A stretch of 43,459 nt of DNA from contig CAMZLH010000036.1 of assembly GCA_947311565.1 (NCBI GenBank), forward strand, positions 1 through 43,459, in the 5' to 3' direction. Below the pieces are notes generated by a model, which made no database searches, was not told where the DNA came from, and saw only the letters and a list, made by a program, of their open reading frames with translations. Source of the stretch: an uncultured Nitratifractor sp. (GTDB lineage: Bacteria > Campylobacterota > Campylobacteria > Campylobacterales > Sulfurovaceae). Positions 31,321 through 35,018 of the stretch are shown in pieces (positions within the stretch are counted from its first letter, which is position 1; every line of letters begins with the position of its first letter). The translations under genes and the position numbers were made by a program.

Positions 31321-32055
31321 ATGGAGATTAGTTTGGATAAGCAGAAAAAACAGCAAGATATTGTAAATATGTTCGATGACATCGCCTCTACATACGATTT
31401 AGCAAATAGAGTTTTAACAATGGGTATAGATATAAAGTGGAGAAAGATAGCGTGTCAGAAATCGTATGAGATACTTAATTTAAAAGAGTTAAAACAAGTT
31501 ACTGATGTAGCGTGTGGTACAGGTGATTTACTTATGTTTTGGAGAGAGTTTGCCCAAAAAAATAGTATAGAAGTAAAAAATTATGTAGGTGTTGACCCAT
31601 CTGTAAATATGCTCGAAGTTGCAAGAAAAAAGATAGATTTTGCTTCGTTTAAAGAGGGTAAAGCGCAAGAGCTACCAGTAGAAGATGAGAGCACTGAGAT
31701 AATATCGATAAGTTATGGAATAAGAAATGTAGTAGATAGAGTAGAAGCCCTGCAAGAGTTTTACAGAGCTCTAAAACCTGGTGGAATTGTAGTAATTTTA
31801 GAGTTTACAAAACAAGATAGAAGTGGAGTAATAGATAAAGTTGTAGATTTTGGAATGAAAAAGATACTACCAATGGTTGGTGGATTAATATCTAAAAACT
31901 ATGCAGCTTACAAGTATTTGCCAGATTCAATAGAGGGCTTTTTAACAACAAAAATGCTAGAAGATGAACTAACAAGCGTAGGATTTAAAATGAGTTACAC
32001 TAAAAGCTTCACCATGGGGATATCGACACTTTTGATTGCACAAAAATCTTTGTAG
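31321..32055 (+). CDS. ubiE: Demethylmenaquinone/ubiquinone C-methyltransferase UbiE (MenG)
   Basis: A 244-residue class I SAM methyltransferase. The family signature MFDDIASTYDLANRVLTMGID...WR is at the N terminus, followed by SAM motif DVACGTGDLL, VGVDPSVNMLEVARKK and ISYGIRNVVDRVEALQEFYRALKPGG. In Campylobacterota, which use menaquinone, the expected job is the methylation of demethylmenaquinone or a related quinone. It lies 16 bases after ribD and 10 bases before the ATPase gene. Confidence 0.95.
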   Translation: MEISLDKQKKQQDIVNMFDDIASTYDLANRVLTMGIDIKWRKIACQKSYEILNLKELKQVTDVACGTGDLLMFWREFAQKNSIEVKNYVGVDPSVNMLEVARKKIDFASFKEGKAQELPVEDESTEIISISYGIRNVVDRVEALQEFYRALKPGGIVVILEFTKQDRSGVIDKVVDFGMKKILPMVGGLISKNYAAYKYLPDSIEGFLTTKMLEDELTSVGFKMSYTKSFTMGISTLLIAQKSL

Positions 32056-32065
32056 GGAGTTTATA

Positions 32066-33388
32066 ATGGCAAGTTTAGATAGTATTAAAAGAAAACTCAT
32101 AGAGATTGAAAATATTGTAGAAACTTTAAAAAGTAATTTTTTAGAAAATGGTATTGATGCTAATGAGTTATTAGAGTTAATAAAATACTATCTAAATAAT
32201 TTTGAGCAATTAGAAAGTTTTAAAGATAGAGTTTTACTCGATTTGCTTGATGAGAAGTTATATTATTTTTATGAAAAATACAACTATATAAAATCATATA
32301 AAAATAAATTTTTGTTAGCTATAAACTTCTTAAAAAAGCACAAAAATACCTTTTTTAAACAAAATCATACAAACAAATCTGCTACAAAACAACTTCCAAA
32401 AAAGATTGATTTTAAATATATTGATAATATTAAAATATCTAACTTTTTTAGTATTAAAAATATAGAGTTAAATGGTTTAAAAGGTAAAAAAGAGGTCTAT
32501 ATTGTTGGTGAAAATGGAGATGGTAAAACGCTTTTACTTCAAGCAATTACAATTGGGTTAAAAGGGACAATTGAAGATAGCTTAAAAGAGTTTAGAAAAA
32601 GAGAAGAAGAGTTTTCTATCGAAATTGAGAATAAAGAGAGTATAAAAGATTGGTTTTTTGCTTATGGAAGTTCAAGAAACAGTAGCTGTCAAATAAAAGA
32701 GGATAAAGTTGGTTTTCTAACTCTATTTAGTTCAGAGTATGACCTCTATAGCCCAACAGAGTGGTTAATAGAGCTATATAATGCCCAAAATGCGAATGAA
32801 GAGTTGGTTATATCTTTGCAAGATGCTATTGGACTTTTACAAAAGATGTTAAATAGAGATATTGATATAGAAGTTAATTATAAAAGTGTTAAGTTTATAG
32901 AAAAAGGCTCAGAGGTCTCTTTTGAACAACTATCATCTGGGTATAAAAGTGTAATTACTATTATTTGTGATTTAATATATAGATTATCCCAATTGCAGCA
33001 AGTTAGCAATATATCTGAGTTTAAAAGTGTTGTTTTAATTGATGAAATAGAGTTGCATCTACACCCAAAGTGGCAATATAGATTTATGCAAAAGTTAAGA
33101 GAGATATTTCCTAATATTCAATTTATTGTTACAACACATAGCTCAACAGTAATTTTAGGCTCAAGTATAGATGCAATATACTACTCTATCTATAAAGAGG
33201 ATGGAGAGACTAAAATATCTGAGCCTCAAGAGATAAAGAGTCAATTTATTAATGAGATACAATTAAATATTTTTGGTTTCGATATCAATAGTGAACTTTT
33301 AAATAATAATTTAAATTATAATAGGCAAAAACAGCAAAAAGCTAAAGATGCTCTACTGAATTTAATAGATATCAATAAGGATAAGTGA
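32066..33388 (+). CDS. SMC/ABC-type AAA ATPase (AAA_21-like) paired with a PIN nuclease
   Basis: A 440-residue ATPase. Residues 1-115 are helical and charged with no known domain. The ATPase spans about 118-410: Walker A GENGDGKT (148-155), signature LSSG (289-292), Walker B VVLIDEIE with D326 and E327, and H-loop TTHSS with H358. The gap between Walker A and signature is only about 130 residues, so there is no long SMC coiled coil; this size and layout recall PtuA of Septu and AriA of PARIS. No TOPRIM domain is present. ATG at 32066 with AGGGAG upstream is chosen over a TTG at 32036 inside ubiE. Its TGA overlaps the ATG of the PIN gene. Confidence 0.85.
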   Translation: MASLDSIKRKLIEIENIVETLKSNFLENGIDANELLELIKYYLNNFEQLESFKDRVLLDLLDEKLYYFYEKYNYIKSYKNKFLLAINFLKKHKNTFFKQNHTNKSATKQLPKKIDFKYIDNIKISNFFSIKNIELNGLKGKKEVYIVGENGDGKTLLLQAITIGLKGTIEDSLKEFRKREEEFSIEIENKESIKDWFFAYGSSRNSSCQIKEDKVGFLTLFSSEYDLYSPTEWLIELYNAQNANEELVISLQDAIGLLQKMLNRDIDIEVNYKSVKFIEKGSEVSFEQLSSGYKSVITIICDLIYRLSQLQQVSNISEFKSVVLIDEIELHLHPKWQYRFMQKLREIFPNIQFIVTTHSSTVILGSSIDAIYYSIYKEDGETKISEPQEIKSQFINEIQLNIFGFDINSELLNNNLNYNRQKQQKAKDALLNLIDINKDK

Positions 33389-33792
33389 TGAGATACTTTA
33401 TTGATACAAATATTATAATAGATTTTTTAGATGAAAAACCAGATGCGATAGAGACCTTAGTCCCACTACTTCAAGATAGTAACACTTCGATATATATCAA
33501 TAGATTAGTATTAATAGAGTCTTTAAGAGGCATAAAATATACTCACTCTAATAAATTTAAACAAGCAAAAGAAGCTTTAGAGCAGTTTTTGCAATTAGAT
33601 ATAAAAGAGGGGATATATCTTGAGGCGATAGATTTTGCTAGATTTTTCAAAAGCAAAGGAGTAACTCTAAAGGGTTCTTGTGAAGTGATTGATTTTTTAC
33701 ACTTTATTACTGCTAAACAGTATGGATTAGAGTTAATTACAAATTATAAAGATTTTAACATATTAGAAAAAAAATACAAAGAGTTTAAATGA
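33388..33792 (+). CDS. PIN-domain ribonuclease-like protein
   Basis: A 134-residue VapC-like PIN protein. Acidic residues line up with the family: D6 (YFIDTNIIIDFL), E44 (LVLIESLRG), D102 (EVIDFLHFITAK) and D122 in NYKDF, where the usual third-position acid is less certain. PIN proteins cut RNA, often tRNA or rRNA. No small VapB-like antitoxin precedes it; the partner is the ATPase gene, to which it is joined by a TGATG overlap. Its own stop overlaps the xseA ATG by 4 bases. I start it at ATG 33388; a GTG lies one codon earlier. It may be the effector of a two-gene defence or toxin module. Confidence 0.85.
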   Translation: MRYFIDTNIIIDFLDEKPDAIETLVPLLQDSNTSIYINRLVLIESLRGIKYTHSNKFKQAKEALEQFLQLDIKEGIYLEAIDFARFFKSKGVTLKGSCEVIDFLHFITAKQYGLELITNYKDFNILEKKYKEFK

Positions 33793-35018
33793 TAAGTGTT
33801 AGTGAATTAAATGAAAAAGTAAAAGCTCTACTAGAGACAACTTTTATGCATGTTATAGTGCAAGGTGAGGTTGGTTCTGTTACTTACCATAGTAGTGGTC
33901 ATATCTATTTTAATATTAAAGATGACTCAAGTACAATTAGGTGTGTAATGTGGCGAAGCAGTGCTAAGAAGCTAAAATTTAAACTAGAGGCTGGAGAGCA
34001 TATAGTAGTAGATGGCTCTTTGGGTGTTTATGCTCCAAGAGGTGAGTATCAGTTAATGGCGGTAAGTATTGAACCTTATGGTAAAGGTGCATTGGCAGTA
34101 GCTTATGAGCAGTTAAAAGCTAAACTTAAAGCTAAAGGATACTTTAAAGATGAGAGCAAAAAAGTACTCCCTAAGTTTCCTAAAAAAGTTGCTGTTGTAA
34201 CTGCTAAAAGTTCAGCCGCGTGTGCCGATATAATAAGTGTTGCAACTAAAAGATGGCCGCTATTAGAGTTGATAGTAATTGATACTCTTGTTCAAGGAGA
34301 TATAGCAAAAAGCGAAATAGCTAAAGCTATGGAGTATGCAGATACCTTAAACGCTGATGTTATTTTAGTAGCTAGAGGTGGTGGAAGTGCAGAGGATTTA
34401 TGGGCATTCAACGAAGAGATTGTAGCAGATAGTATATTTAAAGCTAAAACACCAATAGTGAGTGCAATAGGACACGAAGTAGACTTTTTAATAAGTGATT
34501 TTGTAGCAGATTTAAGAGCGCCAACCCCAAGTGCTGCTATGGAGAGAATTCTACCAGATAAAAATGATTATCTATTTCTATTAGATGAACTAAAAGAGAG
34601 CTATAAAAATCAAGTTAATCTAAAATTAAATCATCTATCAGAAGAGTTAAAAAACATAGAGACCCAACTTAAGTCTCTATCACCAAAAGCTAAATTAGAG
34701 TTGCTCTCAAACCAATTTAAGACTCTATTAGAGCAGTTTAACAGTGCAGTAGAGTTTAAACTAACTACTAGTAAAAGCCAACTGTCACCACTAACAAATA
34801 GACTAAACTCTACAATTACACTACTGCTTCAAAAAAAGAGTCAAGAGTTAGATATGATACAAAAACAACTAATCCTAAATAACCCAAAAAATAAGATAAA
34901 AGATGGATTTGCTGAAGTAGTAAAAGATGGTAAAAGAGTAAAACTTTGTAATTTAAAAAGTAGAGATAAAATAGAGCTTGTAAATGAAGAGTGTAAAGTT
35001 AAGGTCATAGTTGAATAG
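33789..35018 (+). CDS. xseA: Exodeoxyribonuclease VII large subunit
   Basis: A 409-residue protein. The N-terminal OB fold (VSELNEKVKALLETTFMHVIVQGEV and GHIYFNIKDDSSTIRCVMWR) binds single-stranded DNA; the catalytic domain carries VVTAKSSAACADI, VARGGGSAEDLWAFNEE and SAIGHEVDFLISDFVADLRAPTPSAA. A long coiled coil (about 250-370) and a C-terminal segment that interacts with XseB follow. No xseB is in the window. It is coupled to the PIN gene by an ATGA overlap, which is unexpected for a housekeeping gene and ties the ATPase-PIN pair to its expression. Confidence 0.96.
   Translation: MISVSELNEKVKALLETTFMHVIVQGEVGSVTYHSSGHIYFNIKDDSSTIRCVMWRSSAKKLKFKLEAGEHIVVDGSLGVYAPRGEYQLMAVSIEPYGKGALAVAYEQLKAKLKAKGYFKDESKKVLPKFPKKVAVVTAKSSAACADIISVATKRWPLLELIVIDTLVQGDIAKSEIAKAMEYADTLNADVILVARGGGSAEDLWAFNEEIVADSIFKAKTPIVSAIGHEVDFLISDFVADLRAPTPSAAMERILPDKNDYLFLLDELKESYKNQVNLKLNHLSEELKNIETQLKSLSPKAKLELLSNQFKTLLEQFNSAVEFKLTTSKSQLSPLTNRLNSTITLLLQKKSQELDMIQKQLILNNPKNKIKDGFAEVVKDGKRVKLCNLKSRDKIELVNEECKVKVIVE

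Follow-up and report, generated by a model that had tools for sequence, protein, structure and literature searches.

The window analysed here is a 43,459-nucleotide stretch of DNA from an uncultured Nitratifractor sp. (contig CAMZLH010000036.1). On its forward strand it carries two adjoining genes inserted between ubiE (31321..32055), the left border, and xseA (33789..35018), the right border. The upstream gene (32066..33388) encodes a 440-residue ABC/SMC-type ATPase that Pfam, PADLOC, PDB sequence and fold searches identified as PtuA-like, a putative sensor and hub. The downstream gene (33388..33792) encodes a protein of 134 residues, predicted from Pfam, its AF2 model and PDB folds to be a VapC-like PIN RNase. 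The ATPase starts at the ATG at 32066, served by a GGGAG Shine-Dalgarno sequence, and its stop codon overlaps the PIN start (ATG at 33388) in a TGATG sequence (33386..33390), an arrangement that would couple their translation. The PIN stop in turn overlaps the ATG of xseA at 33789, so that the cassette sits seamlessly in its ribD, ubiE and xseA neighborhood. With a GC content of 26 to 27%, compared to about 33.5% in neighboring genes, both genes are AT-richer than their surroundings. No VapB-like open reading frame was found between or beside the two genes in the list of open reading frames of the window, and no reverse transcriptase gene adjoins the cassette. The original prediction had described these reading frames, their fusion through TGATG, the ABC motifs considered below and the lack of a VapB-like antitoxin; all of them were recovered.

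The ATPase contains Walker A (GENGDGKT, residues 148 to 155, 32507..32530), the ABC signature (LSSG, residues 289 to 292, 32930..32941), Walker B (VVLIDE, residues 322 to 327, 33029..33046) and an H-loop histidine (His358, 33137..33139). In an alignment of 13 homologues, K154, S290, G292, D326, E327 and H358 were invariant. With these motifs intact, the sequence has the features expected of the PtuA family. Pfam matches were obtained to AAA_21 (5e-17, above the curated cut-off) and to AAA_15. The best 25 PADLOC profiles comprised 24 PtuA profiles, headed by PtuA1 (2.3e-43), and one retron I-A ATPase. The closest PDB sequences were those of retron Ec78 and Septu PtuA, and all 50 among the fold matches listed were Septu or retron I-A PtuA entries, the query model being of moderate quality (pLDDT 66). 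On this sequence evidence, the ATPase core is a member of the PtuA family. Since its score against the NCBIfam PtuA model, an Ec78 equivalog, was 136.7 bits, below the cut-off of 500, the protein is described as PtuA-like and not as that exact protein. The region upstream of the core (residues 1 to 115, 32066..32410) had been called helical from the sequence, and helices were indeed modeled at about residues 1 to 101 with modest confidence.

The PIN protein matched the Pfam PIN domain above the curated cut-off (1.5e-13), and its AF2 model had a pLDDT of 91.6. The top fold matches in the PDB were VapC toxins within VapBC complexes, with TM scores of about 0.8. A PDB search with the sequence gave no match; relatives in the PDB came from the fold search alone. 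No PADLOC profile matched the protein, and its NCBIfam VapC score (46.5 bits) lay under the cut-off of 80. The acidic quartet of the fold is present as D6 (33403-33405), E44 (33517-33519), D102 (33691-33693) and D122 (33751-33753), all invariant in 19 relatives. Residue 120 (33745-33747) is Tyr in the window and Asp in the other family members (TNYKDF versus SNDKDF), and lies close to the fourth catalytic acid. The VapC-like character assigned to this protein by the original prediction is thus upheld by the Pfam match, the fold and the conserved acids, and the intact acids speak against a catalytically dead PIN domain.

We examined the distribution of the pair in related genomes. In a same-family sample of 150 genomes, including records named Sulfurovum, the ATPase was present in 17 and the PIN protein in 10. 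Only 2 of 12 same-genus genomes carried the pair, and in 7 same-genus genomes, one of them with a pair of its own elsewhere, ubiE directly adjoins xseA. These empty sites rule out a fixed gene pair of a ubiE-xseA operon; the pair is sporadic and, judging by its sites, mobile. Other pairs adjoin genes for ClpA and aat, RseP, ilvA and ppx, marC, an ILVD/EDD-family dehydratase or phosphoglucose isomerase, or lie inside operons for type III restriction. Across about 85,000 genomes scanned, 27 relatives of the PIN protein were returned. None turned up in plasmids, phage records or viral contigs, which gave no sign of a plasmid- or phage-borne reservoir. Adjacency to the ATPase is obligate in this sample: every PIN homologue of at least 37% identity with readable upstream DNA (19/19) lies directly 3' of a PtuA-like ATPase gene, with an overlap of 1 to 4 nt in nearly all pairs. 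These 19 come from Campylobacterota and gammaproteobacteria, and their carriers include the methanotrophs Methylomonas and Methylovulum (complete or draft isolate genomes) and a metagenome-assembled Thiomargarita. The partner ATPases belong to the window type, to a second lineage (the L048 type, also matched best by PtuA profiles in PADLOC) or to a single outlier (L078). Three more distant PIN matches (27 to 40% identity; L088 to L090) lie instead behind small genes of about 95 to 105 codons in the usual VapB layout, and these small genes matched antitoxin families weakly.

Several neighboring genes were recorded in passing. The gene that follows PIN in Methylomonas sp. LW13 (L068:5466-6290) encodes a Schlafen AlbA_2 domain protein; this domain is frequent in defense-related proteins. 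L048-type pairs (L048/L073, L075, L077 and L049/L081) lie within or next to type III restriction operons with a ResIII subunit downstream in 4/4, and in L075 an N6_N4 methylase upstream was confirmed. This layout resembles that of anticodon nucleases carried inside type I restriction operons. In two genomes of the genus, a VapBC-like gene pair that looks unrelated lies on the downstream side of xseA, close to the same operon (L061:2729-3312 and L063:1569-2155, minus strand).

Many window-type ATPases are followed by a PtuB-type HNH gene at the place where PIN would be; the HNH labels were set by sequence pattern, with PADLOC confirmation of PtuB for four. PIN and HNH labels are intermingled in the tree built from the ATPase cores, with 6 changes, at least 4 of which are forced by well-supported branches, and a single clade of PIN-partnered window-type ATPases was rejected (AU test, P = 0.003). 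The clearest mosaic is formed by L041, which carries HNH, and L035 and L082, which carry PIN. Protein identity across their ATPase cores is 87% and DNA identity 84%, whereas outside the core the N-terminal parts are 23% and the tails 17% identical and the nucleases are unrelated. The breakpoint between L041 and L035 lies just before the ATPase tail. The N-terminal part is likewise exchangeable: at least two types occur on the same core, the second being about 220 to 270 residues long, and each is found with both effectors. Together, the interleaved labels, the mosaic and the N-terminal types indicate that N-terminal part, core, and tail plus effector have been exchanged as separate blocks. Most loci come from metagenome-assembled genomes, in which chimeric assembly might pass for recombination; the pattern, however, recurs across many contigs, with the PIN type in the complete Methylomonas sp. 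LW13 genome and the HNH type in the one-contig genome G371.

The exchange of effectors is matched by an exchange of the C-terminal tail of the ATPase (about residues 393 to 440, some 48 residues; 33242..33385), which tail HMMs and covariation mark as effector specific. Tails of PIN-partnered ATPases share a motif that reads roughly NDI...FGFDVN...RI.NP...QK.AK..LL.LI and is kept across lineages whose cores are only about 27 to 35% identical. The tail is different (SPLFD...SSDDYIY..IH...) in HNH-partnered ATPases whose cores are much nearer to that of the window ATPase. An HMM built from window-type PIN tails alone scored all 16 other-lineage ATPases at 30 to 50 bits and no HNH-partnered one above 9. 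The reverse HMM gave 23 to 53 bits for window-type PIN ATPases and less than 6 for HNH ones. Across lineages, tail type matched effector type in 40/40 ATPases. Supported branches provided 4 independent contrasts, and although all 4 agreed (sign test, P = 0.125), they are too few to reach significance by themselves. Tail distance tracked PIN distance with core distance removed (partial r = 0.60, permutation P = 0.0002, 17 complete pairs). The tail analysis was made once the pattern had been seen in an initial set of 13 sequences, which makes it a strong description and not a preregistered test. Modeled by itself, the tail had low confidence (pLDDT of about 43); this would suit a segment that folds upon its partner and proves nothing. 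From these sequence patterns, we propose that the tail docks the PIN protein and acts as an antitoxin-like element.

Decayed loci bear on the relationship between the two proteins. Two ATPases are shortened, lacking the N-terminal part, and both stand beside broken PIN genes, frameshifted in L037 and with an in-frame deletion in L039. In L084, an intact ATPase adjoins a decayed PIN. Except at contig ends, no intact PIN beside a broken ATPase was seen among the loci examined. Small as the numbers are, these loci lean towards the ATPase acting as a brake on PIN. Other genes were observed directly upstream of the two shortened ATPases: a Uma2-family putative endonuclease gene in L037 (9213-9785, minus strand), and a second PIN gene, preceded by a small gene in VapBC layout, in L039 (10239-10819, minus strand).

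The reading that we favor, with moderate confidence, is that the pair is a variant of Septu in which a VapC-like PIN RNase takes the place of the PtuB HNH nuclease. The PtuA-type ATPase, with its variable N-terminal part and ABC core, would be the sensor and hub, and its exchangeable tail would bind the cotranslated PIN protein and keep it in an inactive assembly. Phage infection would change the ATPase so that PIN is released or repositioned, and the enzyme would then cut host RNA, stopping translation and aborting the infection. The likeliest target would be tRNA. tRNA-Tyr is cleaved during infection by Septu EcB88 (PMC13096335) and by retron-Eco7 PtuAB (PMC11555353), and VapC PIN enzymes cleave tRNA as well (PMC12409363), so the swap of effector could keep the kind of target. 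In terms of parts, by analogy with these systems, with PARIS and with NetFlax, the ATPase is probably the sensor, while the tail would serve as dock and probably as brake, and PIN would be the RNase that aborts infection. Braking is the weakest link in this scheme, as toxicity in retron-Eco7 requires PtuA and PtuB at once, PtuA being needed for the toxicity of PtuB and not suppressing it (PMC11555353). A broader proposal, to which we give an even chance, is that the PtuA-family ATPase serves as a universal sensor chassis on which an interchangeable C-terminal address tail would specify the nuclease, HNH or PIN, to be docked and controlled. The PIN-type tail would then be a built-in antitoxin replacing VapB, and N-terminal sensor, core, and tail plus effector would be swapped independently.

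The retron-Eco7 result leads directly to the main competitor of this scheme, in which the ATPase is a required coeffector scaffold and PIN is inactive alone, being activated or aimed through the tail by an ATP-bound ATPase oligomer. The PtuA-like nature of the window ATPase fits such a scaffold, as does the need for both Walker and HNH motifs in Septu EcB88 (PMC13096335). Restraint accounts better for the decayed loci, few as they are, where both shortened ATPases accompany a broken PIN and one intact ATPase adjoins a decayed one. Enzymes of the VapC fold, moreover, are usually toxic alone. NetFlax showed that AAA ATPases neutralize RNase and TOPRIM toxins (PMC10440598), and on balance we regard a scaffold as somewhat unlikely. 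Restraint without defense is the substance of another possibility, a self-maintained addiction module in which ATPase and tail replace VapB. It would explain the VapC fold, the antitoxin-first gene order with its overlap, the sporadic distribution across many sites and the small VapB-like genes beside distant PIN relatives. It sits poorly with a large energy-using ATPase whose exchangeable N-terminal regions are typical of sensors, whose closest relatives are Septu and four of whose relatives are located within type III restriction operons or next to them, and we consider it improbable.

The match between tail and effector might also be functionless, if recombination breakpoints happened to fall within the 3'-terminal part of the ATPase gene, with tail and nuclease gene moving as one DNA block. 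In favor of this, the two are neighbors on the DNA and the L041/L035 breakpoint falls immediately ahead of the tail; against it, the motif persists across lineages with cores only about 27 to 35% identical and the match holds in every ATPase compared, which leaves such hitchhiking a slim chance. Finally, the ATPase-PIN loci are not within recognizable defense islands, and many are embedded in housekeeping operons. This counts against the Septu-variant reading, as do the Tyr at residue 120 of the window PIN, the metagenome-assembled origin of most loci and the moderate quality of the ATPase model. Housekeeping surroundings would be expected of an ordinary cellular RNA-processing pair in a metabolic operon, neither toxic nor defensive. 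A pair that is sporadic, mobile, absent from most relatives, decaying in some genomes and homologous to Septu makes that explanation very improbable.

Neither PADLOC, NCBIfam nor the literature searched contains a two-gene system of PtuA with an active PIN protein, or, for the two databases, a family for a PIN with a PtuA partner; an earlier mention in ABC-ATPase classification or Septu structure work is possible. The sole PtuA-adjacent PIN described in that literature comes from ptuXYZ, an operon of three genes, and is a dead PIN-like domain (PMC11980606). There, too, a PtuA-like ATPase adjoins a PIN-like domain, but that domain is devoid of catalytic residues and forms a fusion with a BECR RNase, and a third gene encodes the DUF262 protein PtuX. 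With two genes and a stand-alone 134-residue PIN that has intact acids and no BECR domain, the window pair does not have the layout of DUF262 PtuX and PIN'-BECR PtuZ. PARIS likewise joins an ATPase with a nuclease, AriA keeping the tRNase AriB sequestered until it detects a phage protein (PMC12409363). Its effector is a TOPRIM protein, whereas here it is PIN with no TOPRIM AriB, and the best 25 PADLOC profiles of the window ATPase were all PtuA or retron I-A; PARIS is excluded. Canonical VapBC shares the PIN fold, size and acidic residues and an antitoxin-first type of gene order. It is ruled out, since VapB is missing and a PtuA-like ATPase stands upstream in all 19 homologues, of 440 residues in the window, whose tail may do the job of VapB. 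The NetFlax AAA (D29) antitoxin hub, with its AarT and TOPRIM partners, resembles the pair as a hub ATPase with various toxic nucleases and RNases; the part of that report consulted names no PIN partner, and its authors could not model a convincing ATPase-toxin interface (PMC10440598). Here, the swap series indicates one short segment, the tail, as the interface between ATPase and effector. Natural chimeras with an 87% identical core and different tails and effectors are at hand, so this interface could be tested by tail exchange.

The PtuAB proteins of type I-A retrons (Ec78/Eco7 and Ec83) provide the closest solved structures of the ATPase, but their HNH is replaced here by PIN and a retron is ruled out, as no reverse transcriptase adjoins the pair. 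As in Septu, a PtuA-type ATPase gene lies upstream of and overlaps a small nuclease gene, and the core interchanges with genuine PtuB-partnered homologues within the same bacterial family. The original prediction of a two-gene module of Septu logic with a PIN effector and no separate antitoxin thus stands; its claim of a wholly new module does not, because the ATPase is of the PtuA family and near-identical relatives carry normal PtuB. Conversely, the downstream gene encodes a VapC-like PIN and not HNH, and the ATPase tail is of the PIN-specific type. Since the PtuB HNH nuclease, a defining feature of Septu, is absent next to the ATPase, the pair is not a strict member, and because PIN has no PADLOC profile, Septu searches that require PtuB would miss such pairs. 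The pair very likely works like Septu; what is new here is that the ATPase tail predicts the nuclease across lineages and covaries with PIN beyond the relatedness of the cores.
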